Shown: in pieces, positions 44,126 to 61,373 of the stretch
Numbering within the stretch: the stretch's first letter is position 1
How the letters are laid out: the number at the start of each line of letters is the position of its first letter
From: Sinimarinibacterium arenosum
GTDB taxonomy: Bacteria > Pseudomonadota > Gammaproteobacteria > Nevskiales > Nevskiaceae
DNA: 64,000 bases
Assembly: GCF_005047655.1 (NCBI RefSeq)
Contig: NZ_SUKF01000008.1
Coordinates: 186,001 to 250,000 of the forward strand
Reading direction: 5' to 3'
Notes under the pieces: generated by a model
Database searches by the model: none
Told to the model about the DNA's origin: nothing
What the model saw: the letters and a program-made list of their open reading frames with translations, nothing else
Position numbers and translations under genes: made by a program

Positions 44126-44155
44126 GGGGCGGACTTCACAGTCCGCCCCTTTTTT
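44126..44155 (+). terminator. Rho-independent terminator of glnK1-amtB1
   Basis: 10-bp perfect arms (GGGGCGGACT / AGTCCGCCCC), TCAC loop and a T6 run. Confidence 0.92.
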
Positions 44156-44226
44156 GTGCGCAGGCCTTCGACTTTTTCCCGGGGTCGCCCTAAACTCCGG
44201 CATTCGATTCGATCAAGGCTAACGTC

Positions 44227-44565
44227 ATGAAAATGCTGGTTGCGGTTATCAAACCGTTCAAGCTCGATGCGGTGCGCGAAGCGCTTGCCGATCTCGGCGT
44301 ACAGGGCATGACGGTCACCGAAGTACGGGGCTTTGGGCGCCAGAAAGGGCATACCGAGCTGTATCGCGGCGCCGAGTACACCGTCGACCTGCTCCCCAAG
44401 ATCAAGCTCGAGCTGGCCGTGACACCGGAGATGGCGGACAAGGCGGTCGATGCCATTCTGAAAGCCGCCAAGACCGGCCAGATTGGCGACGGCAAGATTT
44501 TCATCTACGACCTCGAGCAGACGGTCCGCATCCGCACCGGCGAATCCGGGGTCGAAGCCGTCTGA
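44227..44565 (+). CDS. glnK: PII nitrogen regulatory protein GlnK (copy 2)
   Basis: 112-aa PII paralogue (MKMLVAVIKPFKLDAVREAL), with T-loop [19 protein letters not shown] (Tyr51 kept) and DGKIFIYDLEQTVRIRTGE. It sits after a strong terminator and has no recognisable sigma-54 promoter, so it is likely expressed independently of copy 1. 70 bp before amtB2. Confidence 0.96.
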   Translation: MKMLVAVIKPFKLDAVREALADLGVQGMTVTEVRGFGRQKGHTELYRGAEYTVDLLPKIKLELAVTPEMADKAVDAILKAAKTGQIGDGKIFIYDLEQTVRIRTGESGVEAV

Positions 44566-44635
44566 GCTTCAGCCGTATCCCGTGCCTGCCGCGAACTGCA
44601 TCGCGCGGTGGGCATTTTTGTGTCCGGGGGAGAAT

Positions 44636-45940
44636 ATGAAAACAAAAATTGCCGCAGCGATCGCACTGCTTTCGTCGCCTGTCTACGCGCAGGAGTCCGC
44701 GACGGCGCTTAACAGCGGGGATACCGCGTGGTTGCTGACTGCGACCGCGCTGGTGTTGTTCATGAGCCTGCCCGGACTGGCGCTGTTTTATGGCGGGCTG
44801 GTGCGCGCCAAGAACGTTCTGTCTGTTCTGGTGCAGTGCTTTGCGATCGTCTGTGTGGTGTCCGTGCTGTGGCTGATCTGCGGGTACAGCCTGGCCTTTG
44901 CCCCCGGCAGTGGATTCATCGGCGGCTGGTCGAAGGCGTTCTTCAACGGCGTTGGCGAGAGCACGCTGAGTGGAGGCGTGCCGGAGTCCGTCTTTGCCAT
45001 GTTCCAGCTGACTTTCGCCGCGATCACGCCGGCGCTGGTTGTCGGCGGCTTTGCCGAGCGCATGAAGTTTTCCGCGATGCTGCTGTTCTCGACGCTGTGG
45101 GTGATGGCGGTCTATGTCCCGGTGTGTCATTGGGTCTGGGCGTCAGACGGCTGGCTATATCAGCGTGGTCTGCTCGATTTTGCCGGCGGTACCGTTGTGC
45201 ACATCACCGCCGGCGTCGCGGCACTGGTCGCGGCGATGCAGCTGGGTCGGCGCAACGGCTTTCCACATACCGCAATGCTGCCACACAACATGACGATGAC
45301 CGTGACCGGTGCCGGCATGTTGTGGGTCGGCTGGTTCGGTTTCAACGGGGGTTCGGCGCTGGCTGCTGACGGGAATGCCGGCATGGCGGTGCTGGTCACG
45401 CATACGTCTGCGGCCGCGGGCGCGCTGATGTGGAGCGCTATCGAGTGGTTCAAGTTCGGCAAACCCTCGGCGCTGGGTATTGTGACCGGGATGGTTGCGG
45501 GGCTTGGCACGATCACGCCGGCATCCGGCTTCGTCGGCCCTGGGGGCGCGCTGGTGATCGGACTCACTGCTGGTGCGGTTTGCTTTACCGCGACCCAGTG
45601 GCTGAAGCGGCGCATGAAGATCGACGACTCGCTGGACGTGTTCCCGGTACATGGCGTTGGCGGCATCCTCGGGACATTTGCGGTCGCGCTGTTTGCGTCC
45701 AGCGGGCTCGGTGTATTCAGCGGGCAGGGCTATGCCGAAGGCATGGATATGGGTCGCCAGTTCGCGGTGCAGATTACCGGCATTGTGGCGGTGGGTGCCT
45801 ATACCGCGGTCTTGAGCTGGGGCCTGCTGAAGCTGGTCGACGTCATGGTCGGCGGTTTGCGCGTGACACCCGAAGAAGAAAACGCCGGCCTCGACACCAC
45901 GCAGCACAACGAGCGCGGCTACGATCTGCAGAGCTTGTGA
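44636..45940 (+). CDS. amtB: Ammonium transporter AmtB (copy 2)
   Basis: 434-aa AmtB paralogue with a signal peptide (IALLSSPVYAQE) and a short direct run into LNSGDTAWLLTATALVLFM. Pore histidines at GGTVVHITAGVAAL and DVFPVHGVGGILG; GlnK-contact tail EENAGLDTTQHNERGYDL. Start 44636 has GGGGGAG just upstream. Two GlnK-AmtB pairs side by side suggest regulatory specialisation. Confidence 0.96.
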   Translation: MKTKIAAAIALLSSPVYAQESATALNSGDTAWLLTATALVLFMSLPGLALFYGGLVRAKNVLSVLVQCFAIVCVVSVLWLICGYSLAFAPGSGFIGGWSKAFFNGVGESTLSGGVPESVFAMFQLTFAAITPALVVGGFAERMKFSAMLLFSTLWVMAVYVPVCHWVWASDGWLYQRGLLDFAGGTVVHITAGVAALVAAMQLGRRNGFPHTAMLPHNMTMTVTGAGMLWVGWFGFNGGSALAADGNAGMAVLVTHTSAAAGALMWSAIEWFKFGKPSALGIVTGMVAGLGTITPASGFVGPGGALVIGLTAGAVCFTATQWLKRRMKIDDSLDVFPVHGVGGILGTFAVALFASSGLGVFSGQGYAEGMDMGRQFAVQITGIVAVGAYTAVLSWGLLKLVDVMVGGLRVTPEEENAGLDTTQHNERGYDLQSL

Positions 45941-45948: not shown

Positions 45949-46221
45949 CTAGCCGCCGCCTTCGGGCGGCGGCAGACGGTTATGGAAGCCGTCGCAGTGC
46001 GGTGCATGGCGCGTGTGCTTGCAGCCACACAACCATTGCGTGCCGCTGCGGCGAGTGACTTCAAAAGCCATGGGCTGCATGCCGCTGCCATCATGTGAGC
46101 CGTCGCAGAACGGCTGTGTGTTCGAACGGCCGCAGGCGCACCACAGATAGCGGCCCGGGGCGAGGTCGAGCACGTAGGCGCTGCGGCGCGCAATGATCGG
46201 GCAGGGGCGTGAATCGCTCAC
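45949..46221 (-). CDS. Tandem CDGSH iron-sulfur domain protein
   Basis: 90-aa protein with two CDGSH-type [2Fe-2S] motifs: CACGRSNTQPFCDGSH and CGCKHTRHAPHCDGFH. Each keeps the three Cys and one His ligands (the second reads CDGFH). No TM segment, so soluble, unlike eukaryotic mitoNEET. It lies 69 bp downstream of the NikR-like gene on the same strand and could be the last gene of that operon. A 9-bp GC hairpin (45952-45973) overlaps its 3' end. Confidence 0.9.
   Translation of the reverse strand: MSDSRPCPIIARRSAYVLDLAPGRYLWCACGRSNTQPFCDGSHDGSGMQPMAFEVTRRSGTQWLCGCKHTRHAPHCDGFHNRLPPPEGGG
45952..45973. terminator. GC-rich hairpin between convergent amtB2 and CDGSH genes
   Basis: GCCGCCGCC-TTCG-GGCGGCGGC, perfect 9-bp stem with a tetraloop, overlapping the CDGSH stop region. 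No T-run in either direction; may act as a weak bidirectional terminator. Confidence 0.45.
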
Positions 46222-46290
46222 ACGGATAGTTGGCGGCGCGCACGGAATGTACGCGCTGCCATGGTAGCGTCAATCGAACACGCGCTTGCG

Positions 46291-46728
46291 CTACTGATGC
46301 AGCTGCGGAATCAGCGTGGTGGTCAGTTCCAGCTTGCCGGAGATGACGCCGCGATTGGTGATCATCTTGTCGGCGATCAGCTGCAGCTGCGCCGCCGGGC
46401 CCTGCACCAGAATCACCTCCATCGTCTGCGAATGCATCAGGTGCACGTGCAGCGAGCTGATGATTTCGCGGATGTGTTGATGCTGCAGATCCGCCAGCAG
46501 CTTTTGCAGCCGCGGCGTCGAATGGTCGTACAACAAGGTGATGGTGCCTGCCATGATTTCGTTGCCGCGCTCTTTTTTGTGCGCGGTGATCTGATGGCTG
46601 ATCATTTCAGCAATGGCTTGAGAGCGACTGTCGAAGCCGCGTTCGGCCACCATTTCATCGAGCTGCAGCAGCAGCGTCTCCGGCAAGGAGACGCTGATCC
46701 GGCTGACACCCCCGTTGTTCTGACTCAT
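46291..46728 (-). CDS. NikR-like metalloregulator lacking the Cys ligand
   Basis: 145-aa ribbon-helix-helix/ACT-fold repressor of the NikR family. N-terminal RHH (SRISVSLPETLLLQLDEMV, RSQAIAEMI), then the metal-binding domain LLYDHSTPRLQKLLADLQHQ and SSLHVHLMHSQTMEVILVQG. Aligned to E. coli NikR, ligands His76, His87 and His89 correspond to His83, His94 and His96, but Cys95 is replaced by Thr102. Metal or ligand specificity may therefore differ from nickel. Start 46728 (MSQNNGGVSRIS). It follows glnT by 17 bp, in the operon whose promoter carries a NikR-type dyad. Confidence 0.88.
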   Translation of the reverse strand: MSQNNGGVSRISVSLPETLLLQLDEMVAERGFDSRSQAIAEMISHQITAHKKERGNEIMAGTITLLYDHSTPRLQKLLADLQHQHIREIISSLHVHLMHSQTMEVILVQGPAAQLQLIADKMITNRGVISGKLELTTTLIPQLHQ

Positions 46729-46745
46729 CGGTCTTGCGTGGTGTA

Positions 46746-48107
46746 CTAGAACAGGTGGCTGTAGCGCTCGATTTCCCAGGCCGAGACGTGACGGTGGTAG
46801 GCCTCCCATTCGTTGCGCTTGTAACGCACGAACTCGTCGCGCAGTTCCTGCCCCAGGGTTTCGGTGACGAAGGGGTCGGCTTCGAAGGCATCGACCGCTT
46901 CGGCCAGCGTTTTCGGCAGGAACTCGATACCGCGCTCGGCGCGCTGTGCTTCGCTCAGTTCGTAGAGGTTGTCTTCCTGCGCCTTGCCCGGATCCAGACC
47001 TTCGCGGATGCCTTCAAGACCTGCGGCCAGAGCCAAGGTCGCGGCCAGATAGGGATTCAGCGCGCCATCGGCGTTGCGGGATTCGCAGCGGCCGCCGCCC
47101 ATCGGCACGCGGATCGAATTGGTGCGATTGTTCGATCCGAACGAGTTGAATACCGGAGCCCAGGAGAAATACGCCATCTCGCCCTGACGCTGCAGGCGTT
47201 TGTAGCTGTTGACGGTCGGTGCGAACGCCGCGCACAGCGCCTTGCCGTGCTTGAGGATGCCGGCGATGAAGTGATAGCCGATCGGTGTCAGGCCCAGGCC
47301 GCGCGGATCTTCCTTCGGATCGCAGGCAAACACATTGGCGCCGGTCTTGAGGTCGTACAGCGACATGTTGAAATGCGCGCCATTGCCGGTTTTGTCGGCG
47401 AACGGTTTGGGCATGCAGGTGGCCAGCAGGCCTTCCTGCTTGGCGAACTCCTTGGCCATCAGGCGGAAGAAGATGAAGCGGTCGCAGCTGGTGATGGCGT
47501 CGGCGTACTTGAAGTCGAACTCGTACTGACCGTTGGCGTCTTCGTGGTCGAACGAGTACAGATCCCAGCCCAGCGCGTTGATCGTGGTGGCGACCTTGTC
47601 GAGCCAGTTGAACTGGTCGAGAAAGCCGCGCACGTCGTAGCAGGACTTGACCAGCTTGTCGTCGGGATTGGGCACCGAAAGCGAACCGTCCTCGCCCTGC
47701 TTGAGCACATAGATTTCGCACTCGATGCCGAGGTTCATGCCAAAGCCCATCGATGCGGCTTTCGCCAGCTGTTTCTTCAGGGCGACCCGCGTGTTCAACG
47801 GATAGGGCTCACCCTTGAAGGTGTTGTCCGCCGGCATCCACGCGACTTCCGGCTGCCACGGCAACTGGATGATGTGATCGAGGTCCGGCACCGAGGCGAT
47901 TTCGTCGTCGTTCGGGCGCTGGCCGAGACCGTCGAGCGCATAGCCCGTATACAGCTCGGAACCGCGCGCCATCTGTGGCAAGTGAGAAATCGGCACGACC
48001 TTGCCCTTGGGAATGCCGTGGATGTCGACATAGGCGCCGATGCAATACTTCACACCTTTGGCTTCAAGGTCCTTCTGGATGCGTTGAATCTCTTCGTTGC
48101 TCTTCAT
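46746..48107 (-). CDS. glnT: Type III glutamine synthetase (GlnT-like)
   Basis: 453-aa GlnT-type ligase. It makes glutamine or, in relatives, gamma-glutamyl amides such as gamma-glutamylmethylamide. Motifs: [30 protein letters not shown], active-site [35 protein letters not shown] and [20 protein letters not shown]. Start 48107 ([16 protein letters not shown]); the in-frame extension lies within the creatininase gene. In an ABC transporter/amidohydrolase operon it may capture ammonia or an amine released from the imported substrate (inference). Confidence 0.92.
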
Positions 48108-48132
48108 CGTGTTGCTCGTTTCGTCGGGGGGG

Positions 48133-48906
48133 TCAGCCGTCGATGTCGACGGCCTGGAAATAGGAATGTGGCAGTGGCGGTTGCTCGGCCATGCCACGCA
48201 GCACGCGCCCGGACAGGTCTTCGACCATCCATGCGTACAGCTGCGCGCCGTCGGCGGCACTGGCGCGGCTGGGAAAACCGGTGACGCCGTTGCTGCTGGT
48301 GCGATTGACCGGATGCGAGAACACGCAGCCGTCGGTGCGGTCTGGATCGTCGGCCGCGGCGATGCGATCCTCGCGCACCATCGACGGTGCAATTGCCTGC
48401 ATCAAGGCCGTCTCGGCGGCGTTCGCGTGCCAGTCCTCGGCGTCCTCGAAATGTTTCTCGCGCACGCGGTCGCTGATCAATGCAGTGCCGATCAGCGCCA
48501 CCATCAGCTCGTCGTGTTCGGCGCGCAGCATCTCCAGTGCACAGCGCAGCGGGGCGGCGTTGGTGACGTGACCGTTGACCAAAAACAGGCGGCGGAAGCC
48601 GGAGGCATAGACCCAGTCGCCGATGTCCTTGACCACGTCGATCAGCGTCTTCGGCTGCAGCGCGATCGTGCCAGGCCAGCGCTTCGAGTGGCCGATCGAG
48701 CAGCCGTAGGGCAACAGCGGCAGCAGCGCCGCGCCGGTCCGATCGGCGACGTCACGGCACAGCTGCATCGAGATCTCGCTGTCCATGCCGCAGCCCAGAT
48801 GCGGGCCGTGCTGCTCGGTCGCGCCGATCGGCAGGATCGCCGTGGTCATGCCGCCGCGTGCCAGCGCGCCGATCTCTTCCCAGGTCATTCGGTACCAGTC
48901 ATGCAT
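48133..48906 (-). CDS. Creatininase-family amidohydrolase
   Basis: 257-aa metal-dependent amidohydrolase of the creatininase/FAPy deformylase fold. Metal-ligand pattern is visible: [15 protein letters not shown] (Glu, His, Asp), VNGHVTN (His) and [10 protein letters not shown] (Glu). The substrate cannot be deduced; family members act on creatinine, formylated pyrimidines and other cyclic or acyl amides. Neighbours (NitT/TauT ABC transporter and GlnT) point to a small imported nitrogen compound. 10 bp from the ABC ATPase gene. Confidence 0.85.
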
Positions 48907-48916
48907 GGGGATTCAC

Positions 48917-49831
48917 TCAGTAAACGTCAGGCACGACATCGTCGACGGCGACCATGCGCACCATGTTGAGGTGGTCTTCACTGAGACCGACGGTTTCGGT
49001 CTGCGGCGGATGGATCAGTTCTTCCAGCCGCGCCTTGGTGGCGAGAAATTCCGGACTCAGGAATTGCTGCGTCGAGCGCGGATGTGGCACTGGCACCTCG
49101 ATCAGTTCCTGCACTTCGCCGGGATGCGCTTTCAGCACGAGGATGCGATCGGCAAGAAAGATCGCCTCGTCCAGGTCGTGCGTGATGAACAGGATCGTGA
49201 CGTCGATGTTCTTCCAGATGTCGAGCAGGTAGCTCTGCATGCGACAGCGCGTCTGTGCATCTAGCGCGCCGAAGGGTTCGTCCATCAGCAGGATGCGCGG
49301 CTGGTTGGCGAGTGCGCGCGCAATCGCGACGCGCTGCTTCATGCCGCCGGAGAGCTGATGCGGATAGGCGTCGGCGAACTTGGACAGGCCGACCAGATCG
49401 ATCCACTGCAGCGCGGTGGGTTCAGGCATGCCGCTGCGGCCGGAGACCTGCAGGCCAAACATCACGTTCTGCTTGACCGTCAGCCAAGGGAACAGCGTGT
49501 AGCCCTGGAACACCATGCCGCGGTCCGGGCCCGGGCCGCTGACCGGCTGGCCATCGAGTAGCACCTGGCCGCTGCTCTGCGTTTCGAGCCCGGCGAGCAT
49601 GCGGATCAGCGTCGACTTGCCGCAGCCGCTGGGACCGATCACGCAGACGAACTCGCGCCGGTGCACGGTCAGGTTGATGTCGCGCAGCGCGGTGACAGTG
49701 CCCTGGCGCGATTCAAAGTTCTTGCCGAGGTTCTGCACTTCGAGAATCACCGGGCGCTGCTTCAGGCGCTCGAAGCGCGCGCGCACCTCGGGCGACTGCT
49801 CGCGATAACTGGGCAGTTGGATTTGGGTCAT
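48917..49831 (-). CDS. ABC transporter ATP-binding protein (NitT/TauT type)
   Basis: 304-aa ATPase of the nitrate/sulfonate/taurine-type importers. Walker [11 protein letters not shown] loop [12 protein letters not shown], signature [15 protein letters not shown], Walker [13 protein letters not shown], switch His in [18 protein letters not shown] ~60-residue C-terminal tail ([16 protein letters not shown]) follows the core. Between the permease and creatininase genes. Confidence 0.94.
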
Positions 49832-49852
49832 GGAACTTCGCGTGTGAATGAA

Positions 49853-50815
49853 TCAGTGGGCGAGACTGCGTTGCCACGGGAAGATGCGGCGTCCGATCCA
49901 GGCCAGCAGCAGATCGGTCGTCAGGCCGAGTACGCCGATCATGAAGATCGCGGCGTAGACGTTTTCGAAATTCTTGTAACGCGCCTGCTGCGTGATGAAC
50001 CAGGTGATGCCTGAGCTGGCGCCGATCATTTCGGCGACGATCAGGTAGGTCCAGGCCCAGCCGAGCAGGATGCGCTGATCCTTGTACAGATCCACGATGA
50101 TGCCGGGGATGACCACGCGGAACAGCAGCGACATGCGTTTGGCGCCGAGCGTCATCGCCGCTTCCAGCAAGGATGGATCGAGCTTGCGCGTGGTGTTGGC
50201 GATCACCAGCACCTGCTGGAAGAAGGTGCCGATGACGATGATCGCGATCTTCGGCGCCTCGTTGATGCCGAGCACCGCAACCGCCAGGGCACCAAACGCG
50301 GGCGCCGGCAGATAGCGGAAGAACTCGACGAAGGGTTCGTTCAGCCGCGAGAACACGTCATAGGTCCCGGCCAGGATGCCTAGTGGCACGCCGAACAGTG
50401 ACGAGATCAGGAAGCCCATCGCGATCACGTAGATGCTGTTGCCCAGGCTTTCGTGCAGCCACTTCTCGTCGCGACGCTTGGGTTCGGTGGTGAACGCGGT
50501 GTACATCGCCTTGGCAACCTGATGCGGTGCCGGGAGATAGATCGGGTTGGCGGATGTGCCGACGGGAACCGCTTCGCCCTTCTGTCTTGCGGCCTCGGCT
50601 TCGCGCTCGAACACCTCTTGTTCGAGCAGCATGCCCTGGGTGAAGTACGACACCGAACCGGGATCGCTGACCTCCACCATTGGATGCCAGATGAAGGGCA
50701 CGTAACTGACCAGACACCAGATCGCCAGCGGAATCACGAAACTCAAGATGCCGAGGAACATGCGTCGCCGTGGCGACAGTTCCTTGCGGACAGCAAACCA
50801 GCTTTGAGCGGACAT
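49853..50815 (-). CDS. ABC transporter permease (NitT/TauT type)
   Basis: 320-aa inner-membrane permease of the BPD_transp_1 family. First TM at ~18-42, then an unusually long periplasmic stretch (~50-125, with EVFEREAEAARQKGEAVPVG) before the core TM bundle (SIYVIAMGFLISSLFGVPLG). The EAA-loop region LLEAAMTLGAKRMSLLFRVVIP contacts the ATPase. Long pre-core segments occur in some urea- or guanidine-linked permeases; here the substrate is unassigned. Confidence 0.92.
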   Translation of the reverse strand: MSAQSWFAVRKELSPRRRMFLGILSFVIPLAIWCLVSYVPFIWHPMVEVSDPGSVSYFTQGMLLEQEVFEREAEAARQKGEAVPVGTSANPIYLPAPHQVAKAMYTAFTTEPKRRDEKWLHESLGNSIYVIAMGFLISSLFGVPLGILAGTYDVFSRLNEPFVEFFRYLPAPAFGALAVAVLGINEAPKIAIIVIGTFFQQVLVIANTTRKLDPSLLEAAMTLGAKRMSLLFRVVIPGIIVDLYKDQRILLGWAWTYLIVAEMIGASSGITWFITQQARYKNFENVYAAIFMIGVLGLTTDLLLAWIGRRIFPWQRSLAH

Positions 50816-50873
50816 CGTCGTGAATTCCAGAACTGGGTAAGTGATCGGGTGTCTGGTCGGGTGTCGCGTGGAC

Positions 50874-51851
50874 TTACAGGCCTGCCGTCAGTGAGCCATC
50901 GATGTAGCTGTCGACATCCTGTGCTTCCTTGTAGACATCGTTGGCGAGGTTGAACTCGTCGACGATCTTCGAAGAGCCGTACAGCGAACCGAAGCCGTCG
51001 CCCTTCTTGAAGAAGCCTTTGGCTTCGTCCAGCGTCAGGATCTTGGTGCCGGTGTAGAAACCTTCATATTCCTCGGGAGAGACACCGACGCGCGATGCCA
51101 TGATCTTGATCGCATCGGCATGCGTCTTCGGATCGTGGATGTAGTCGACCGCGCGGTACCAGACCTTCACGACCTTTTCCCAGTCCGCCTTGCGCGTGGC
51201 CAGACTCACTGGCGACACCGCGAGCACGTCATAGATCAGGCCGGGTTCGTCGGCGCTGGTGTAGATCGGCTTGGAACCGGGGACCAGCTTCAGGGCGACG
51301 CCGGAGTTCGGCTGCCACGCCGCGATGGCGGAGACGTCACCGCTGGCGAGCACCTGTGGGGTTTCGTTGGTCGGCACGTTGACCAGGGTCACGTCCTTCT
51401 CGCTCATGCCGGCCTTCTTCAGGCCGTTGAGCAGCAGCAGGTGATCGACGAAACCGATCTCGACGCCGACCTTCTTGCCCTTCAGATCCTTCAGCGAGCT
51501 GATGCCCGGCTTGCCGACGATCATGTCGTTGCCGTTGCTGTAGTCGTTGATGATGATCATCACGCTCTTGGCGCCGGTGGCGCCGGTCACCAGCGCATCG
51601 CCGTTGGTCATCGTCACCGCGTCGAGCTTGCCGGCCGCGAAGGCGTCCATCGACGCGACGTAGTCGAACCATTCGAACGAGACGTCGACGCCAGCGTCCT
51701 TGAACCAGTTCTTCTCGATCGCGACCTGCCATGCGACCCAGCCCGGCCAGTCGCTGTAGCCGATTTTCAGGGGTTCCGCAGCCTGCGCGGACAGCGACAG
51801 CATCCACGCGCCCAGCGTTGCGGCAAACAGTTTCTTCATACCGATCTTCAT
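50874..51851 (-). CDS. ABC transporter substrate-binding protein (NitT/TauT type)
   Basis: 325-aa periplasmic binding protein. Signal peptide after [20 protein letters not shown] (cleavage near AQAAEP), then [39 protein letters not shown] and [18 protein letters not shown], typical of SsuA/TauA/NrtA-like proteins. Start 51851 is chosen because GAGGA sits 6 nt upstream; a farther in-frame start at 51887 would lie within the operator. First gene of the operon to nikR. Ligand unknown; guanidine or a related nitrogen compound is a hypothesis from context. Confidence 0.92.
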
Positions 51852-51868
51852 CGCGGGTCCTCTTTGAA

Positions 51869-51896
51869 GTATTACGAACAGAGACATTCGTATTAC
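51869..51896 (-). promoter_or_regulatory. Probable operator of the NikR-like repressor
   Basis: 28-bp dyad: GTATTACGAA, 8 bp, TTCGTATTAC; 9 of 10 positions are symmetric. Overall size equals the E. coli NikR operator (GTATGA-N16-TCATAC, 28 bp) and the outer triplets GTA/TAC match. It covers the predicted start site of the sigma-54 promoter at 51903, ideal for repression. The NikR-like gene lies in the same operon. Confidence 0.72.
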
Positions 51897-51902
51897 TCAC
51901 AC

Positions 51903-51918
51903 AGCAAGTGCCGTGCCA
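51903..51918 (-). promoter_or_regulatory. Sigma-54 promoter of the ABC-creatininase-glnT-nikR operon
   Basis: On the minus strand TGGCAC-GGCAC-TTGCT is an exact match to TGGCACG-N4-TTGCW. Predicted transcription start ~51893, giving a ~42-nt leader to the ATG at 51851. Confidence 0.85.
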
Positions 51919-52064: not shown

Positions 52065-52910
52065 TCAGCGCTGCGCGATGAAGCGAGTGAAATGCGCGTG
52101 TTCGGTGTCGCCGACCCAGCGATTCAGATCCCACAGGTCGGCGACCGGCGCCCGCGTGAACGGCAGGCAGTGCAGGTAGCCGTCCGGTCCGAACTCCGGC
52201 GTCATCGTGGTGAGCGTCGTTCCGCCAGCGTGCTGCGCGTCCCAGATCAGTGTCCACCAGCGCTGGTGCGCCGCCAGCGCTTCGGCGAATTCCGGCGCAG
52301 CCGGATGCGGTACCTGCGGACCCTGGTCATAGCCGACGCGGGCGTGGATGTGGCGAACGTTGGGCGCGATGGCTTTGATGATGTCGAGCTCGCTGTCGAT
52401 CAGCCGCTCGCAGACCACGCACCAGTGACTGAAATCGGCGGTGAGTGGAATTTGCGGCAGCGCGGCGACGACATCGCGCGTGATCCACGGATTGAACAGC
52501 GAACGCCCACGATGCGTCTCGAAACTCAGTGACAGGCCGTGCCGTCGTGCCAGCGCCATGCCGCCTTCGAAGAAGCGCAGCGAGTCCGCCAGCGGCCACG
52601 CGTCGCACCCGCCGATGCAGTTCACGTGCAGTGGATGAAGCGCCTGCGCACGCGACAGGCCGGCGTCGAGATCGCGCAGATGCTGCTCGACGCTGGCGTG
52701 GCGGTCGGGGACGTAACTGCCGGCGGTGGTGATCTCGGCGATGAACTGCAGTCCGTGGTCGTTCAGCGCCGCGCTCAGCTCGGCGAGCTGGGCGGGACTT
52801 TGTGGCGTTTGTCCCTCAAGACCGCCGAAGCCGGCGGCGTGTGCCTGCCCGGCGGCGGCGGCCAGCGATCCGTCGTGACCCCACAGCGTCTTGAACAGTT
52901 TCAGTTCCAT
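52065..52910 (-). CDS. Sugar phosphate isomerase/epimerase-like TIM-barrel protein
   Basis: 281-aa xylose isomerase-like TIM barrel. Visible features: LKLFKTLWGHDGSLAAAAGQ, HVNCIGGCDAWPL, LSLSFETHRGRSLFNPW with metal-type Glu/His, LTADFSHWCVV (Asp/His) and VRHIHARVGYDQG (His). These acidic and His residues fit a metal-dependent isomerase or epimerase site. Substrate unknown. It is 4 bp downstream of the desaturase gene and likely cotranscribed with it from the sigma-54 promoter at 53958. Confidence 0.85.
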   Translation of the reverse strand: MELKLFKTLWGHDGSLAAAAGQAHAAGFGGLEGQTPQSPAQLAELSAALNDHGLQFIAEITTAGSYVPDRHASVEQHLRDLDAGLSRAQALHPLHVNCIGGCDAWPLADSLRFFEGGMALARRHGLSLSFETHRGRSLFNPWITRDVVAALPQIPLTADFSHWCVVCERLIDSELDIIKAIAPNVRHIHARVGYDQGPQVPHPAAPEFAEALAAHQRWWTLIWDAQHAGGTTLTTMTPEFGPDGYLHCLPFTRAPVADLWDLNRWVGDTEHAHFTRFIAQR

Positions 52911-52914: not shown

Positions 52915-53910
52915 TCAGTGCGCCGTCAGGAACGACACGCCGAGCACGCCGATGAAATCCTGCGGCGCGCCGATCGCGTGGTCGGGCGCATCGCCATTCA
53001 GCACGCGCGCGACGCGGTGGCGGTGGTAGCTGCGCAGCAGCGCGGCAAATGGCAGGACGTGATCCGGCGTGCTCCCGGGTTGCGCACGATGCAGCGCCGG
53101 CAGTGCATGCCACGGCGTGCTGGGATGGATGTGATGCGCGTTGTGGTAACCGAAGTTCAGCATCAATCGATCAATCCAGGGATGTGTCGGCGCCAGCGGA
53201 TTGGAGTAGGTGTTGCGCTGTTCGTAGGCACGGTCGCCGGCAGGGCGCTGCGGGGTGCCGTCGTCCAGTGTGGTCAGCACGGCATAGGTGTGCTGGTGCA
53301 CGTCCATGAAGCGCAGTGCGTGCAGGAACAGCAGATACGCGAGCGCGTAATACAGCGGCGCCGTCGGCGTGATCCACGCCATGCCGACGAACAGGCTGCC
53401 GCGCACGACCAGATTGACCAGCACGCGCGTGCGGCGATCGCGGCGCTTCGGCGAGGTGAACGGCAGCACGATCACCAGCGCATGCATCAGCAGGTCGACT
53501 GCCGGGATGTAGGCCCACTCGGCCAGCTGCACCGCGCGCAGCCACCCCGGATGGCGCAGCAGCAGCGCACGGTAGTCGTAGGCGATGACGTCGGCGCGTT
53601 CGGAGTGATGGCGCAGATGCTTGCGCCGGATATCGTCGTAGCGACCATAACTGGCGCCGACCATCCAGCTCAGCACTGCGCCGAGCCGGCGATTGGCGGC
53701 CTGTGAGACGAAAATGCTGTTGTGCGCGCATTCGTGGATCAGATACGCGGCCACGACCAGGCTGTGCGCCAGCGCCAGGCATGCAATCCCTTGCAGCAGC
53801 ATGGTGCCGGACAGCAGGCCGCCAATTGCTGCAGCGGTTACGCCCAGGGCGTAGCCCAGCGCCGCGAGTTGTGGCCAGTCCGCGCGGCCGCCGCGCAATG
53901 CCCAGTCCAT
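52915..53910 (-). CDS. Membrane fatty acid desaturase-like di-iron protein
   Basis: 331-aa integral membrane di-iron enzyme. Three His boxes are present: HECAH (AYLIHECAHNSIF), HLRHH (KHLRHHSERAD) and HNAHH (FGYHNAHHIHP). TM segments flank them (LGYALGVTAAAIGGLLSG, MLLQGIACLALAHSLVV). Start 53910 (MDWALRGGRADWPQ) is preferred over 53979, because the latter would put a sigma-54 promoter inside the coding sequence; GGAG lies 7 nt before 53910. It could hydroxylate or desaturate a lipid or a small alkyl substrate. Its place in a nitrogen locus is unexplained. Confidence 0.85.
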   Translation of the reverse strand: MDWALRGGRADWPQLAALGYALGVTAAAIGGLLSGTMLLQGIACLALAHSLVVAAYLIHECAHNSIFVSQAANRRLGAVLSWMVGASYGRYDDIRRKHLRHHSERADVIAYDYRALLLRHPGWLRAVQLAEWAYIPAVDLLMHALVIVLPFTSPKRRDRRTRVLVNLVVRGSLFVGMAWITPTAPLYYALAYLLFLHALRFMDVHQHTYAVLTTLDDGTPQRPAGDRAYEQRNTYSNPLAPTHPWIDRLMLNFGYHNAHHIHPSTPWHALPALHRAQPGSTPDHVLPFAALLRSYHRHRVARVLNGDAPDHAIGAPQDFIGVLGVSFLTAH

Positions 53911-53957
53911 CCTGCCGCTCCATGCCTGCGGCCAAGGCGCCGCAATGCAGGCCACTG

Positions 53958-53973
53958 CGCAATCGACGTGCCA
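53958..53973 (-). promoter_or_regulatory. Sigma-54 promoter of the desaturase/TIM-barrel operon
   Basis: Minus strand TGGCAC-GTCGA-TTGCG matches TGGCACG-N4-TTGCW except the last base. Predicted start ~53947, about 37 nt upstream of the ATG at 53910. It overlaps the alternative longer start of the desaturase, which is why the shorter start is preferred. Confidence 0.72.
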
Positions 53974-54132
53974 CGCCATCGCGGACCTTAGATAGGCATG
54001 AGGTAGGCATGGGGGTTTGTGCGATCCAGCGTGATGGCCGGTGGTGCACTATTTCGACGCATCGGTGCGCCATCGTGGCGCGGATGTGGTCACCGGACGC
54101 GCGCAGGCGGCGTCACAGCCGCGGCTTCGCCG

Positions 54133-54148: not shown

Positions 54149-54209
54149 ATATCTGCACTTGAGAGGGGTAGGCCGCGCTTCGGAAAACCGATGCCCGGCC
54201 CGCTGCTTC

Positions 54210-54328
54210 GAAGGGTGGCTAGGGTTCCGGTCCGCGGTGCGGATGCTGGTCCGAGAGCCGCCGGCCTCTGCGAGGCGGGCCTGTCCCGCGGATCGGATGC
54301 TGCACGGAGGGATAAAAGCCCGGGAGGA
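54210..54328 (+). ncRNA. Guanidine-I (ykkC) riboswitch
   Basis: The sequence carries the conserved blocks of the guanidine-I aptamer in order: CTAGGGTTCCG (54219-54229), CTGGTCCGAGAG (54246-54257) and ACGGAGGGATAAAAGCCCGG (from 54304), with variable stems between. It lies on the plus strand upstream of the carboxyguanidine deiminase, guanidine carboxylase and allophanate hydrolase genes. Guanidine binding is expected to switch expression on. The expression platform runs into 54329-54387; a T-run terminator is not obvious, so control may act on translation of the leader ORF or cgdA. Confidence 0.92.
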
Positions 54329-54387: not shown

Positions 54388-54447
54388 GTGAACAAAATAC
54401 TGAATCCCCAACCGCCCTCTCGCCCTACGTGCGGAGCGTGGCGATGA
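54388..54447 (+). CDS. 19-codon leader ORF coupled to cgdA
   Basis: GTG start with AGGAGG 6-7 nt upstream, encoding [19 protein letters not shown], and a TGA stop that overlaps the ATG of the next gene (ATGA). It sits between the riboswitch and the first structural gene. The strong ribosome site and exact 4-nt coupling suggest it is translated and that riboswitch-controlled initiation here governs cgdA translation. No homologue recognised; it could be a by-product of the translational switch rather than a functional peptide. Confidence 0.6.
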   Translation: MNKILNPQPPSRPTCGAWR

Positions 54448-55181
54448 CTGCGCTCTCACCGATCGCGCCGTCCGCGCTGCTGTGGCAGGAAACCGTGCCC
54501 GGGGGCTGTCACTGGTCCGGCCTGATGCGACGCGGCAGCGCGCTGCGCCTGACCGATCTCGACGGCGGCGCCAACGTCTCGGCGCTTTTCTTCAATCAGG
54601 AAGAGAAGCTCGAGCGCTACAACATGCCGGACTCGCTCAAGGCACAGCACACCGCGTTTCTGACCACCGGCAACGTACTGATGTCGGACATGGGCCGCGT
54701 GCTGTGCTCGATCATCGGTGACGAGCTCGGGTGGCACGACACCGTCTGCGGGCTGTCGGATGCGAATTCGATTCGTGAAAAGTACGGCGAGGCGCGGTAC
54801 CAGACGCATCGCAACGCGATGCATCGCAGTGCGCGTGACGGGCTGCTGGTCGAACTCGGAAAGTGGGGACTGGGCAAGCGTGATCTGGTCGCCAACGCCA
54901 ACTTCTTCAGCAAGGTGGTGCCGGATGCTGACGGCTATCTGGGCTACGTCACGGGGCATAGCCGCGCCGGCGCCGCGCTGGACCTGCGCTTCGACATGAA
55001 CGTACTGGTGGTGCTGTCGACTGCGCCACATCCGCTGGCTCCTGCCGGAGCGTACCGGCCTGCGGCGGTCGAACTCAGCGCCTGGCACGCCGGTGTCGCT
55101 GCGCCCGACGACGTCTGCCGTTTGCACTGTCCGCAGAACCAGCGGGCGTTCACCAACACCGACCGCTACTTCGCGCAATAG
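54444..55181 (+). CDS. cgdA: Carboxyguanidine deiminase subunit (DUF1989, UAAP1)
   Basis: 245-aa DUF1989-family protein, formerly 'urea amidolyase-associated protein'. Such pairs form carboxyguanidine deiminase, which converts carboxyguanidine to allophanate and ammonia. Motifs: [56 protein letters not shown]. Start ATG 54444 (MTALSPIAP), coupled to the leader ORF. First enzyme gene of the riboswitch-controlled operon. Which of the two subunits is called CgdA is assigned by order only. Confidence 0.88.
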
Positions 55182-55192: not shown

Positions 55193-55852
55193 ATGAGTCT
55201 GATCGTTGAAAGTCATCTGCGCCCGGAAACCGCGGTGCTGGATCAGGTCTGCGCTGCCGGTGAGCCGTGGATGGCGACGGTGCGCAAGGGCCAGGTGTTC
55301 CGCATTCTCGACCTCGAAGGCAACCAGGCCGTGGACACACTGTTCTACAGCGCGGCCGACGCGGAGGAACGCTACAGCGCGGTGGATACGATCCAGCGGC
55401 AGGCGCGCCTGTATCTGGAAGCAGGATCGGTGCTGTACTCCAGCGAAGGTCGACCGATGCTGACCATTGTCGCCGACACCTGCGGTCGCCACGACACCCT
55501 AGGGGGCGCCTGTGCGGCCGAAAGCAATACCGTGCGCTATGCACTGGACAAGCGACCGATGCACAGCTGCCGTGACAATTTCATGCACGCGCTGGCGCAC
55601 TGCGACTGCGCGCATCACCTGAATCTGGGCAAGCGCGACATCGCACCGAATATCAATTTCTTCATGAACGTGCCGGTGACGCCGGACGGCGCACTGAAAT
55701 TCGATGACGGCATTTCCGCCCCGGGCAAATACGTCGAGCTGCGAGCAGAGATGGACGTGGTGGTGCTGATCTCCAACTGCCCGCAGCTCAACAATCCCTG
55801 CAATGCCTACAACCCGACGCCGGTGCGGCTGTTGGTGTGGGACCCGGAATGA
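55193..55852 (+). CDS. cgdB: Carboxyguanidine deiminase subunit (DUF1989, UAAP2)
   Basis: 219-aa DUF1989 paralogue of the preceding protein. Shared landmarks: [58 protein letters not shown] and [19 protein letters not shown]. The Cys/His-rich centre suits a metal site. It partners with the upstream subunit. 11 bp separate the two genes. Confidence 0.9.
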
Positions 55853-55888
55853 GCGGAATCTGATCCGGCGGTATCGCGGTAACACGAC

Positions 55889-55935
55889 AGCGGGACGACC
55901 CGTTGCCGTCCTCACGCAGAAGCGGGACGACCCGT
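55889..55935 (+). repeat. Paired 15-bp direct repeat before gdnC
   Basis: AGCGGGACGACCCGT occurs exactly at 55889-55903 and 55921-55935, 32 bp apart, in the 99-bp gap between cgdB and gdnC. Each copy contains CGGG-ACGA-CCCG, which can fold into a small hairpin. Could tune gdnC translation or mRNA stability. Confidence 0.7.
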
Positions 55936-55951: not shown

Positions 55952-58900
55952 ATGTTCAACAAGGTCCTGATAGCCAATCGCGGTGCCATCGCCTGCCGCG
56001 TCATCCGCACGCTCAAGGCGCTCGGCGTGAAGTCGGTCGCGGTGTATTCGGAGGCCGATGCCAATGCGCTGCATGTGAGTCTGGCCGACGAAGCCGTATG
56101 CATCGGTCCGGCGCCGGCGACGGAGAGCTATCTGCGCGCTGAGCGCATTCTGGATGCAGCGCGCGCGACCGGTGCCGAAGCGATCCATCCAGGGTACGGC
56201 TTCCTCTCCGAGAATCCGGACTTTGCCGAAGCCTGTGCCGCAGCCGGCATCGCCTTCGTCGGGCCGACCCCGGAGCAGATGCGCGCGTTCGGCCTCAAGC
56301 ACACCGCGCGCAGCCTGGCCGAGGACAGTGGCGTGCCGATGCTGCCCGGCAGCGGCCTGCTCAATGACGTCGGACATGCGCGCGCCGAGGCCGCACGCAT
56401 CGGCTACCCGGTGATGCTCAAGAGCACTGCCGGTGGCGGTGGCATCGGCATGCGTCTGGTGTGGTCAGACGACGCGCTGGAGGAGGCCTATGCTTCGGTC
56501 GATCGTCTGGCGCGCGCCAATTTCAAGGAAGCCGGCATCTTCATCGAAAAATACGTCGAGGCCGCGCGCCATATCGAAGTGCAGGTCTTCGGCGATGGCG
56601 AAGGTCACGTCATCGCGCTGGGCGAGCGCGACTGCTCGGTCCAGCGGCGCAATCAGAAAGTGATCGAGGAAACGCCGGCCCCCGGCTTGAGCGACGCGCA
56701 GCGTGCGCAGCTGCACTCCGTCGCGGTGCGCTTGATGCAGTCGGTCAACTATCGCTCGGCCGGCACTGTCGAGTTTGTGATGGACGCGAGCACCGGCGCG
56801 TTCTATTTCCTGGAGGTCAACACGCGGCTGCAGGTCGAGCACGGTGTGACCGAACAGGTTGCCGGGGTCGATCTGGTGGCCTGGATGCTGCAGCTGGCTG
56901 CGGGCGATCTCCCGGCGTTGGACGGTTTGCAGCCACGCCTGCGCGGCGCGTCGATCCAGGTGCGTCTGTATGCCGAAGATCCGAACAAGGACTTCCAGCC
57001 GTCGTCGGGACTACTGACCGAAGTGGCGTTTCCGGCGGACGCGCGCATCGAAAGTGCGGTGGTTGGCGGCGCCGAGGTCACGCCGTACTACGATCCGATG
57101 CTGGCCAAGCTGATCGTCACCGCCGACACGCGTGATGCCGCGCTGGAAAAGCTGCAGGCGGCGCTGGCCGCGACGCGCATCGCCGGCATCGAAACCAATC
57201 TCGACTATCTGCGTCAGGTTGTTGGCGACCGCGTTTTTGCTGAAGGCCGCCAGACCACGCGCTACCTGAACAGCTTCCACTATCTGCCGTCCACGATCGA
57301 CGTGATCGAACCCGGCGTGCAGACCTCGGTGCAGGACTGGCCCGGTCGTGTGGGCTACTGGGATGTTGGCGTACCGCCCTCCGGTCCGATGGACGCACTG
57401 GCGCTGCGCATCGGCAACCGGCTGCTCGGCAACGACGAAGGCAGCGCCGCACTCGAATGCACCATGAGCGGACCCAGCCTGCGTTTCAATTGCGACACCG
57501 TGTTTGCGCTGACTGGCGCAGAAACGGCGGCGACGCTGGATGGCGCACCGCTGGCGTACTGGCAGACGCATCGCGTCCGCGCCGGCAGCGTACTCACTAT
57601 CGGTGCGGTCAAGGACGCCGGCTGTCGCAGTTATCTGTGCGTGCGGGGTGGGTTCGACGTGCCGGATTATCTCGGCGCCAAGGCCACCTTCACGCTGGGC
57701 CAATTCGGCGGGCACGCCGGTCGCACGCTGCGAGGCGGCGATGTGCTGCATCTGTGTCCGGCCGCGGAACCCTCGATCGCCGCTGACGCGCACTGGCCGG
57801 CAGCGGCGCGACCGCAGCATGCGCGGCACTGGCAGATCGGCGTGCTCTACGGTCCGCATGGCGCCCCGGACTTTTTCACCGACCCGGACATCGAGCGCTT
57901 CTTCGCGACCGATTGGGAAGTGCACTACAACTCCAGCCGCACCGGCGTGCGTCTGATCGGACCCAAGCCGGAATGGGCGCGCAGCGACGGCGGCGAAGCC
58001 GGCCTGCATCCGTCCAACATCCACGACAATGCTTACGCCATTGGCGCGATCGACTTCACTGGCGACATGCCGGTGATTCTCGGGCCTGATGGCCCCAGTC
58101 TCGGCGGCTTCGTGTGTCCGGCCGTGGTGGTGCAGGCCGAGCTGTGGAAGCTGGGGCAGCTGCGTCCGGGCGACACCTTGCGGTTTGTCCCGGTCGGGGC
58201 GGAGCAGGCGGCGCAGATGCTGGAGGCCCAGGCGGCAAGCCTGAGCTGCGGTGCGCCGCTGGCGCAGCCGCAGACCGAGGCGCTGACGTCTCCGATCCTG
58301 ATGCAGCGTGCCGCTGCGGGTGAGCATCCGCAGGTGATCTATCGGCAGGCCGGCGATGCCTATCTGCTGGTCGAGTACGGGCCGCTGGAACTGGACCTGA
58401 CACTGCGCTTCCGAGCGCACGCGCTGATGGAAGCGCTGCAGGGCTGGCGTGATACCCAGGACAACAGCGGCATCATCGATCTGACGCCGGGCATCCGCTC
58501 ACTGCAGGTGCATTACGATCCGCGCCGACTGGCCCGCACGGCCCTGCTTGAACGCCTGCAGCAGATCGAGGATGCGTTGCCGGCGATCGACGAGAACAGT
58601 GTGCCGACACGCATCGTGCATCTTCCGTTGTCCTGGGACGATGCCGCGACGAAACTCGCGATCGACAAGTACATGCAGTCGGTGCGCAAGGACGCGCCGT
58701 GGTGTCCGAGCAATATCGAATTCATCCGTCGTATCAACGGGCTCGACAGCGTCGACGCGGTCAAGCGCATCGTGTTCGATGCCGCGTATCTGGTGCTGGG
58801 CCTCGGCGACGTCTATCTCGGCGCGCCGGTGGCGACCCCGCTGGACCCGCGGCATCGACTGGTCACCACCAAGTACAACCCGGCGCGCACCTGGACGCCG

Positions 58901-59557
58901 GAGAATGCCGTCGGTATCGGCGGTGCCTATCTGTGCGTCTACGGCATGGAAGGGCCGGGCGGCTACCAGTTTGTCGGTCGCACCGTGCAGATGTGGAACC
59001 GCTGGCGCCAGACGGCCGATTTCGCCAAACCCTGGCTGCTGCGTTTCTTCGACCAGATCCGTTTCTACGAAGTCGGCGCCGATGAGCTGCTGCAGCTGCG
59101 GCAGGATTTCGTCGCTGGGCGCTTCCAGCTGAAGATCGAGCACAGTCGATTCAACCTGGCCGACTACACCCGCTTTCTCGGTGACAACGCTGCGGAGATT
59201 TCCAGCTTCAAGACGCAGCAGCAATCCGCCTTCGACGCGGAACGTGAACGCTGGCGCGCGGCCGGTCAGGCCGAATACGTCAGCGAGGCCGAGGTCGCCG
59301 CAGCCGGCCCCGATAGCGAACTCGACCTGCCGCCCGGCGCGCGCATGGTCACTGCGCACGTGCCGGGCAGTGTCTGGAAGGTGCTGGTGCAGCCGGGTCA
59401 GCGCGTCGCCGCTGGCGAGACCCTGGTGATCGTGGAATCGATGAAGATGGAATTCAGTGTGGTGGCGCCCGAAGCCGGCGAGGTCCTGACGGTGCTGTGC
59501 CGCGAAGGTGCGCCGGTATCGGCGGGCCAGGATGTGCTGACCCTGCAAGTCTCATGA
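55952..59557 (+). CDS. gdnC: Guanidine carboxylase (biotin-dependent, 'urea carboxylase' family)
   Basis: 1201-aa biotin enzyme that carboxylates guanidine using ATP and bicarbonate. Domains: biotin carboxylase (~1-450; [46 protein letters not shown]), KipA/AHS2-like (~475-780), KipI/AHS1-like (~830-1030, with [16 protein letters not shown]), and a C-terminal biotinyl domain with ESMKMEF (biotin Lys1165). Family members are annotated as urea carboxylase, but the guanidine-I riboswitch and adjacent deiminase pair make guanidine the likely physiological substrate. 13 bp before atzF. Confidence 0.93.
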
Positions 59558-59570: not shown

Positions 59571-61373
59571 ATGAGCGACCAGATTCCTGACAGTCTCGAC
59601 CTGGACACGCTGCGCGCCGCGTATCGCGCGGGTCTCAAGCCCAGCGTGCTGCTCGAGGCCCTGCTGGAACGCGCCGAAAACGATACACGGCATTGCTGGA
59701 TCGCCTTGACGCCGGTCGAGCAGCTGCGCGCGCTGGCGAGCGCGCTGGATGCGCAAGCGCCGGACTCGCTGCCGTTGTACGGCGTGCCGTTCGCGATCAA
59801 GGACAACATTGATCTCGAAGGGCTGCCGACGACGGCGGCGTGCCCCGATTTTGCCTACATGCCCGAGCGCAGCGCCGAAGTCGTCGAACGCCTGATCGCG
59901 GCCGGGGCGTTGCCGCTGGGCAAAACCAATCTGGACCAGTTCGCCACCGGCCTCAACGGCACGCGTTCGCCCTACGGGGTCTGCCTCAACGCCTTCGATC
60001 CGGCCTATGTCTCCGGCGGGTCCAGCTCGGGTTCCGCGGTCAGTGTCGCAACCGCTCAGGTCAGTTTTTCGTTGGGCACCGACACCGCGGGGTCCGGTCG
60101 GGTCCCGGCCGCGTTCAACAATCTGGTGGGGCTGAAGCCGACGCGCGGCCTGATTTCGACGCGGGGCGTGGTGCCGGCGTGCCGCTCACTCGATTGCGTC
60201 TCGATTTTCGCGCTGACGGCGGAAGACGCCGAGCGGGTCTACGGCGTGGCGCTGGGCGGTGACGGTGATCCGGCGTACGCGCGGGCTGCCGAGCCGCATG
60301 GCTTCGATTTCGGACGTGCGCAGGGCTTCCGCTTCGGCGTGCCGCGCGCGGAGCAGCTCCAGTTCTTTGGTGACGCGGCCTACGAGGCGCTGTTCGCTGA
60401 AGCCGTCACCCGACTCGAGGCGCTGGGCGGGACGCGCTGCGAGATCGATTTCGCGCCGTTTCTCGATGCCGCCCGACTGCTCTACGACGGGCCGTGGGTC
60501 GCCGAGCGCTATCACGCAATCCGCGAATTTATCGAGCGCCAGCCGGAATCTCTGCTGCCGGTGATCCGGCAGATCGTCGGTGCCGCGGCATCCCTGCGCA
60601 GCGTTGATGCCTTCGACGCGTTCTATCAGCTGGCAGCGCTGAAGCGCAGCGCCGATGCCATCTGGAAGGATGTCGATGTGGTGCTGACGCCGACCGCCGG
60701 CTTCATCCCGACGATCGAGGCGACCCTTGCCGAGCCGGTACGCCTCAACAGCGATCTCGGGTACTACACCAACTTCATGAACCTGCTGGATTACGCCGCG
60801 GTGGCAATGCCGGCGGGTTTTCGCGCCGACGGCCTGCCGTTTGGCGTCACGCTGTTCGCGCCGGCGCATCAGGACGTGCCGCTGCTGCATCTGGCCGCGC
60901 GCTGGCAGCGCGCGGGCGCGGTGACCTTGGGTGCCACCGCGCAACCGATGCCGCCGCTGGCCGCGGTGGCGCCGGCCGTGCCCAGCGGGCAGGTCCAGCT
61001 CGCCGTCTGCGGTGCGCACATGGCGGGTCTGCCGTTGAATCATCAGCTCACCGAGCGCGGTGCGCGCCTGGTGTGCGCGACGCAGTCGGCGCCGGCCTAT
61101 CGTTTTTATGCACTGGCCGGCGGGCCGCCGTTCCGGCCGGGCATGATCCGCGTCGCCGAAGGTGGTGCTGCGATCGAGGTCGAAGTGTGGGAGCTGCCGG
61201 CGCGCCTGTTCGGCAGCTTTGTGGCCGCAATCCCGGCGCCGCTGGGGATCGGCAAGCTGGAGCTGGCCGACGGTCGCTGGGTGCCGGGTTTCATCTGCGA
61301 GCCGGGGGGTGTGGTTGGCGCTGCCGACATCACGCATCACGGCGGCTGGCGCGCCTATCTGGCTCAGCGGTAG
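59571..61373 (+). CDS. atzF: Allophanate hydrolase
   Basis: 600-aa amidase-signature enzyme that splits allophanate to ammonia and CO2, the last step of the guanidine route. Catalytic triad elements: Lys77 (FAIKDNIDLEG), the GGSSSGS segment around Ser151-155, and Ser175 (DTAGSGRVPAAFNN). A C-terminal allophanate hydrolase domain (~475-600, AVCGAHMAGLPLNHQL) completes the AtzF layout. Stand-alone rather than fused to the carboxylase as in yeast DUR1,2. Confidence 0.95.
   Translation: MSDQIPDSLDLDTLRAAYRAGLKPSVLLEALLERAENDTRHCWIALTPVEQLRALASALDAQAPDSLPLYGVPFAIKDNIDLEGLPTTAACPDFAYMPERSAEVVERLIAAGALPLGKTNLDQFATGLNGTRSPYGVCLNAFDPAYVSGGSSSGSAVSVATAQVSFSLGTDTAGSGRVPAAFNNLVGLKPTRGLISTRGVVPACRSLDCVSIFALTAEDAERVYGVALGGDGDPAYARAAEPHGFDFGRAQGFRFGVPRAEQLQFFGDAAYEALFAEAVTRLEALGGTRCEIDFAPFLDAARLLYDGPWVAERYHAIREFIERQPESLLPVIRQIVGAAASLRSVDAFDAFYQLAALKRSADAIWKDVDVVLTPTAGFIPTIEATLAEPVRLNSDLGYYTNFMNLLDYAAVAMPAGFRADGLPFGVTLFAPAHQDVPLLHLAARWQRAGAVTLGATAQPMPPLAAVAPAVPSGQVQLAVCGAHMAGLPLNHQLTERGARLVCATQSAPAYRFYALAGGPPFRPGMIRVAEGGAAIEVEVWELPARLFGSFVAAIPAPLGIGKLELADGRWVPGFICEPGGVVGAADITHHGGWRAYLAQR

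Follow-up and report, generated by a model that had tools for sequence, protein, structure and literature searches.

Gene order and the proposed regulon

What purpose is served by an ABC importer, a creatininase-like hydrolase, a GmaS-like ligase and a NikR-like regulator encoded together beside genes for guanidine breakdown? The question is raised by positions 45949-51918 of a 64,000-nt stretch of Sinimarinibacterium arenosum DNA (NZ_SUKF01000008.1), hereafter the window, in whose positions coordinates are given unless prefixed by a locus label (L numbers denote loci, G numbers genomes; the window's genome is G000). An earlier note had described this segment as an uptake or catabolic operon consisting of a NitT/TauT-type importer, a creatininase-family protein (Creat), a type III glutamine synthetase (GlnT), a NikR-like repressor and a CDGSH protein, and profile matches recovered all of the named families on the minus strand. 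The unit exceeds that segment, with genes for an FA_desaturase-family oxygenase and a TIM barrel lying upstream on the same strand. In our preferred reading, given a probability of roughly 0.62, the window would carry a single guanidine regulon that scavenges nitrogen and is split into two divergent halves, the first for uptake and demethylation of methylguanidine and the second for the guanidine carboxylase pathway that follows.

Read along the minus strand between 53979 and 46291, the order is desaturase, TIM barrel, sigma-54 promoter, substrate-binding protein (SBP), permease, ATPase, Creat, GlnT and NikR-like regulator. On the plus strand, cgdA and cgdB follow a Guanidine-I aptamer, and a Guanidine-II aptamer then precedes the genes for the carboxylase and allophanate hydrolase. 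A gap of 4 bases lies between the desaturase gene and the TIM gene, and 177 bases, with the promoter TGGCACGGCACTTGCT inside, separate the TIM gene from the SBP frame, for which inspection makes an ATG at 51851 a likelier start than the open reading frame end at 51887. The features are as follows.

52915..53979, minus: membrane di-iron oxygenase, FA_desaturase family (PF00487, E 1.7e-35)
52065..52910, minus: xylose-isomerase-like TIM barrel (PF01261)
51903..51918, minus: putative sigma-54 (-24/-12) promoter TGGCACGGCACTTGCT (12/12 consensus positions)
50874..51887, minus: NitT/TauT-type SBP, NMT1 family (PF09084; TIGR03427 146.9 bits, under the cut-off of 333.9)
49853..50815, minus: ABC permease (PF00528)
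48917..49831, minus: ABC ATPase (PF00005)
48133..48906, minus: Creat, Creatininase-family metal hydrolase (PF02633, E 1.1e-68)
46746..48107, minus: GlnT, GmaS-type gamma-glutamyl ligase by its residues (TIGR03105 645 bits, cut-off 469.6)
46291..46728, minus: NikR-like regulator with a degenerate metal site (PF01402, RHH_1, and PF08753, NikR_C)
45949-46221, minus: CDGSH (family match)
54208..54328, plus: Guanidine-I riboswitch before cgdA (RF00442, 78.2 bits, cut-off 63)
54429..55181, plus: CgdA (TIGR03425 346.9 bits, cut-off 205.95)
55193..55852, plus: CgdB, carboxyguanidine deiminase (TIGR03424 347.6 bits, cut-off 284.7)
55887..55935, plus: Guanidine-II riboswitch before the carboxylase (RF01068, 36.5 bits, cut-off 32)
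55952..59557, plus: guanidine carboxylase, scored as urea carboxylase (TIGR02712 1903.5 bits)
59571..61373, plus: allophanate hydrolase (PF01425 and PF21986)

The carboxylase pathway genes (gca, cgdA, cgdB and allophanate hydrolase) stand under guanidine riboswitches in the window. TIGR02712 does not separate guanidine from urea carboxylase, and we infer specificity for guanidine because guanidine riboswitches accompany the gene.

The proposed sequence of events begins with nitrogen starvation, under which the sigma-54 promoter would drive an importer predicted to take up guanidine and methylguanidine. The membrane di-iron oxygenase would hydroxylate the methyl group of methylguanidine, and the resulting N-(hydroxymethyl)guanidine would be split into guanidine and formaldehyde by the TIM barrel with its putative metal site, as gene replacement suggests. 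Guanidine riboswitches would induce guanidine carboxylase, CgdAB and allophanate hydrolase, a known ammonia-yielding pathway to which the window's genes are assigned by sequence. Creat and GlnT would work as an invariable pair alongside this pathway, on its guanidino side: GlnT would spend ATP to couple an amine or a guanidino compound to glutamate, and Creat would hydrolyse an acyl-guanidine or amide bond.

Recurrence of the gene set and its link to guanidine

In the class sample (n = 274 genomes; Creat threshold E ≤ 1e-30), Creat of the window type was found in 8 genomes, CgdB in 24 and the desaturase in 9, with CgdB present in all eight Creat genomes and in eight of the nine desaturase genomes (the exception being G167). 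When the window was excluded, the associations of Creat and of the desaturase with CgdB had p-values of 1e-8 and 9e-8, respectively, kinship being ignored. Together with a named-genome scan (9 loci) and 398 genomes sampled across the phylum (4 more besides the window), the class sample yielded 21 core Creat genomes, in every one of which GlnT directly follows Creat; 19 of them encode CgdB, against 24/274 in the class at large, the two others being G276, a metagenome-assembled genome (MAG), and G628, recorded at 100% completeness. Among 16 relative loci (L010-L025), which include the nearest named relative of the window (L010, from a Nevskiales MAG, 92-96% identical), Creat is followed by GlnT in 16/16, an SBP match is present in 15/16 (L014 is interrupted by a contig end) and at least some of CgdA, CgdB and guanidine carboxylase are present in 13/16. 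The lack of recurrence that the earlier note had named as a refutation was therefore not seen: the families do travel together, with the exception of CDGSH. A scan of 44 further loci at E ≤ 1e-3, L010 among them, gave no CDGSH match, and we rejected this protein as a cluster member in favour of a chance neighbour. Plasmid searches with Creat and GlnT returned nothing but relatives below 60% identity, and a literature search, in which subscription journals were scarcely covered, gave no recognisable description of the gene set or its chemistry.

The importer further connects the cluster with guanidine. The window SBP fails the canonical guanidine/urea-carboxylase importer model TIGR03427, which the SBP of L048 passes with 453.5 bits. 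In seven Creat-less carboxylase loci (L046, L048-L052 and L054), SBP, permease and ATPase genes stand immediately before cgdA, their SBPs being 28-35% identical to that of the window (L045 has matches to permease and ATPase alone; no such set was seen in L047 and L053). In L018-L021, among other core loci, the window-type importer fills this place and Creat-GlnT follows. A window-type SBP (≥70%) is present once in 15/17 core genomes, and Guanidine-I aptamers lie immediately upstream of the SBP in L023, L024 and L081. The guanidine link, which the earlier note had drawn from adjacency, is strongly supported on sequence grounds by the recurrence with carboxylase genes, the placement of the importer and these aptamers, and guanidine and methylguanidine are very probably the importer substrates. 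The SBP can occur apart from the Creat-GlnT pair, and the pair apart from this type of SBP: L067 combines Creat-GlnT with a canonical-type SBP, and the Paraburkholderia plasmid locus L081 carries a window-type SBP (66%) and an MBL gene behind its own Guanidine-I aptamer, with no Creat or GlnT.

Scored against what we take to be the sigma-54 consensus, TGGCACGGCACTTGCT (51918-51903) matches at 12/12 positions, a score equalled by 0/200 mononucleotide shuffles. At least 10/12 positions were matched in 12 of the 16 SBP upstream stretches scanned, with weaker scores in L021 (9), L015 and L017 (8 each) and L022 (6 of 12 positions).

The most telling locus is L067, where a single operon unites Creat-GlnT with the carboxylase pathway and with MgdH and MgdL: on one strand it encodes SBP, EamA, MgdL, MgdH, MBL, Creat, GlnT, a Gcw_chp porin, permease, ATPase, cgdA, cgdB, carboxylase and allophanate hydrolase. 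Its MBL and EamA proteins belong to subfamilies other than those seen in L013-L017, a difference suggesting that the two activities are part of the pathway.

In the window, two consecutive GlnK-ammonium transporter pairs adjoin the cluster (42198-45940, plus strand), and upstream of both lies a gene for a Gcw_chp (PF09694) outer-membrane protein (38091-38795, plus strand). As a homologue of this family sits inside the L067 guanidine operon (L067:7129-7914, minus strand), the protein may be a guanidine porin.

A putative second route of methylguanidine demethylation

The desaturase histidine boxes are invariant across 15 rows, and the TIM barrel, the model of which resembles ketose 3-epimerases (8yeb, E 4e-9, TM-score 0.64), conserves an E-D-H-H-E set of the kind common at metal sites. 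Methylguanidine is demethylated in Vreelandella boliviensis by the hydroxylase MgdH, which acts on methylguanidine itself, and the lyase MgdL, which acts through the catalytic residues D49/R51 on N-(hydroxymethyl)guanidine, as described in PMC12508155. Our probes for these enzymes were L048-type homologues; the L048 pair was taken as MgdH/MgdL homologues because of its 2-oxoglutarate (2-OG) dioxygenase domains, its setting within a carboxylase operon under a guanidine riboswitch and an Asp-x-Arg invariant in the family, the spacing of which in MgdL homologues is that given for D49/R51 (PMC12508155).

All four oxygenase-lyase pairings were seen within single clusters: MgdH with MgdL (L048, L067, L080), MgdH with TIM (L058, L081, L082, L083), desaturase with MgdL (L039, L044) and desaturase with TIM (the window, L010, L011, L013, L015, L016, L017, L022, L023, L043, L061). 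Genome-wide, TIM was present in 12/22 genomes, MgdL in 5/22 and both in 0/22 (chance 0.0096, kinship again being ignored); of the 16 desaturase genomes, 14 encode exactly one of these two proteins and none encodes the two together, and no TIM locus is among the 7/48 loci matched by the MgdL profile. No MgdL homologue was found in G000 at E ≤ 1e-5 or in the window by profile, and a search of the window revealed no MgdH 2-OG dioxygenase. Since TIM replaces MgdL across genomes, we propose it as a candidate N-(hydroxymethyl)guanidine lyase and the desaturase as a candidate (methyl)guanidine hydroxylase; the replacement data on TIM would also fit another N-alkylguanidine. The earlier note's idea that a guanidine-containing precursor is processed fits this upstream pair. 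An independent plasmid test gave three TIM homologues (H57-H59, 46-57% identity), each immediately followed by a 2-OG oxygenase that shares 52-56% identity with that of L048, a fourth TIM match, H61, being outside this comparison. Plasmids gave one weak desaturase match (29%) and none for MgdL. A 32% Spirosoma TIM homologue in a sugar context was set aside as another family. A guanidine riboswitch directly precedes the desaturase or the SBP-desaturase operon in 6/14 desaturase loci scanned (L017, L023, L039, L041, L043, L044).

Several observations weigh against the proposed regulon. The complete genome G628 carries importer, Creat, GlnT and NikR-like genes (L068) with no CgdB at E ≤ 1e-20, so that this core can exist without the carboxylase pathway; the desaturase of G167, a genome without CgdB, adjoins GlnK and no guanidine genes; and the CgdB-like gene of G263 is only 40% identical, with no carboxylase in view (L053). 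Neither TIM nor MgdL was found in 5/22 genomes (G026, G263, G167, G276, G282). MgdL is divergent, and its absence from other genomes is soft because tblastn with the L048 and L039 sequences missed the L080 copy, found solely by profile; the search for MgdH covered loci only. At the window's own desaturase/TIM and SBP promoters no guanidine riboswitch reached the gathering score, and MBL and EamA, frequent companions elsewhere, are not beside its desaturase/TIM pair. Finally, the Kozakia and Klebsiella TIM-MgdH pairs lie near glyoxylate/hydroxypyruvate reductase rather than carboxylase genes, making a substrate other than methylguanidine possible, and the reductase hints at an N-alkylguanidine that leaves glyoxylate.

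Among related loci, L082 and L083 have TIM-2-OG oxygenase pairs beside a class II aldolase and glyoxylate/hydroxypyruvate reductase, with no carboxylase genes in view, and their substrate is perhaps a guanidino acid. The same-family desaturase of L042:9420-10385 (plus strand; G167) has GlnK as its neighbour and no guanidine gene in sight, and may serve a different function.

The Creat-GlnT pair and its regulator

Creat belongs to the creatininase family PF02633 by both profile and fold, its model matching creatininase 1q3k (E 5.1e-18, TM-score 0.75). It shares with creatininase (creatinine amidohydrolase, 1j2t/1q3k) the fold and the invariant E31, H33, D42, H113, H160 and E165, and differs in its ~27% identity and in the replacement of the NGHYEN segment, which holds Glu122, by N-x-H-V-[TSG]-N in 17/17 sequences. 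With that motif missing, a creatinine-specific creatininase was rejected as its identity.

The type III glutamine synthetase of the earlier note holds as a family assignment (TIGR03105) and fails at the residue level: GlnT has Thr54 and Trp316 in 21/21 sequences in place of the glutamine-synthetase Asp50 and flap Glu, for which reason we rejected a plain ammonia-capturing glutamine synthetase. Its closest solved relatives are the glutamate-methylamine ligases 9qur and RhGmaS (7cql), and it resembles the latter in the lack of Asp50, the Trp in place of the flap Glu and the retained Asp177, Glu179 and Glu186, features reported for GmaS in PMC7948447. Unlike GmaS (gamma-glutamylmethylamide synthetase), it has Ser for the pocket residue Gln175 and Asp for Asn188 (Ser185/Asp198 in 21/21 core rows versus Gln/Asn in 7/7 mgs-linked GmaS rows), does not stand beside mgsABC and belongs to a genome without an MgsB match at E ≤ 1e-5. 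The pocket does not name the amine, since Asp198 is also shared with glutamine synthetases. In the GlnT tree, the 7 mgs-linked rows formed one clade (100/100) and 19 core rows grouped together (92/94), with L024 and L025 unplaced. By its residues, GlnT is a GmaS-type gamma-glutamyl amine ligase with an amine pocket of its own, not a glutamine synthetase.

The metal-type repressor of the earlier note likewise stood in part. The regulator has the RHH and NikR_C domains of NikR; at what we take to be the His/His/His/Cys nickel-ligand positions, the Cys is lost in 11/11 rows and the HxH pair in 5/11, so that no conserved nickel sensor is left and nickel control was rejected. It probably controls the Creat-GlnT pair, which in L070 stands alone behind a divergent NikR-like gene. 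Overall, the interpretation of the earlier note is partly supported, and nitrogen set free by the pathway may, as it suggested, be captured in a gamma-glutamyl amide.

Alternative explanations

The imported compounds might instead be creatinine-like cyclic acyl-guanidines, the ring being opened by Creat, (methyl)guanidine freed by oxygenase and lyase, and the remainder left to the carboxylase pathway. Such a route is suggested by the Guanidine-I-controlled desaturase clusters L039 and L041, which contain creatininases far nearer the solved enzyme (E 3.3e-76 in L039, with NGHYEN retained and SDR, biuret-hydrolase-like and MBL genes alongside), by a further creatininase near TIM-MgdH in L058 and by a creatininase structure with 1-methylguanidine (3a6d, according to its entry title). 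We nevertheless consider it unlikely for the window, the Creat of which is ~27% identical to those creatininases and lacks the NGHYEN motif, and neither L039 nor L041 has a GlnT match. GlnT could also be a methylamine ligase of the usual kind, its product entering the N-methylglutamate pathway and Creat supplying methylamine from methylguanidine. The solved relatives and retained residues of GlnT speak for this role, which is nonetheless quite improbable: the N-methylglutamate synthase subunit MgsB occurs in 5/17 genomes and was not detected in G000 at E ≤ 1e-5, which led us to reject GlnT as a member of that pathway; those five genomes own both kinds of GlnT, with a separate gmaS adjoining mgsABC; and the pocket differs from that of the mgs-linked enzymes.

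Similarly improbable, in our estimate, is a role for importer, Creat and GlnT in handling guanidine itself, in which GlnT would make gamma-glutamyl-guanidine and Creat would hydrolyse it, as a trap or store or as a second nitrogen route. Importers and oxygenases of several types accompany the pair, which in G628 occurs without CgdB, and creatininase chemistry is acyl-guanidine hydrolysis, all of which would suit this scheme. Guanidine, however, is a poor nucleophile, gamma-glutamyl-guanidine was not found in the literature searched (subscription journals scarcely covered), and D198, occurring in glutamine synthetases too, is no evidence for a guanidinium pocket. A doubtful combined version would have GlnT form gamma-glutamyl (methyl)guanidine and Creat cut it, giving a nitrogen route independent of guanidine carboxylase, such as G628, lacking CgdB, would need, beside a second, independently evolved methylguanidine demethylase in which the membrane di-iron oxygenase would work with a hemiaminal lyase of TIM-barrel fold. 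That nickel-responsive or unrelated neighbours came together by chance is hardly credible: the NikR fold and the one genome without CgdB could be cited for it, but the order is conserved in 16/16 loci and the metal ligands are lost.

Two other groups of clusters deserve mention in their own right. L039:4575-11642 (minus strand) and L041:8395-13619 (plus strand), Guanidine-I-controlled and encoding SBP, desaturase, SDR, creatininase, biuret-hydrolase-like and MBL proteins, are candidates for a creatinine-to-guanidine route. L058:6150-11533 (plus strand; G145), where creatininase, an arginase-family hydrolase, TIM and MgdH lie close together, is a candidate second creatinine or alkylguanidine cluster.

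Comparison with known systems

Few guanidine-producing reactions are known, and the origin and fate of methylated guanidines are raised as an open question in the MgdH paper (PMC12508155). If the proposed regulon is real, it would hold another methylguanidine demethylase, second to MgdH/MgdL and assembled from unrelated folds, in which a sugar-epimerase fold serves as hemiaminal lyase. It would also hold a conserved Creat-GlnT unit, whose known partners would make its substrate directly testable. Compared with the V. boliviensis MgdH/MgdL system as described in PMC12508155, the window has a membrane di-iron FA_desaturase where MgdH is a 2-OG dioxygenase, a TIM barrel where MgdL is a beta-barrel, and an importer from another subfamily; Creat, GlnT and the NikR-like regulator are extra, not being among the operon genes in the Fig. 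1 legend of that paper. Both share Guanidine-I and Guanidine-II riboswitches, an ABC importer, gca/cgdAB/atzF and a two-gene oxygenase-lyase insert, and elsewhere these positions are taken by MgdH or MgdL homologues.

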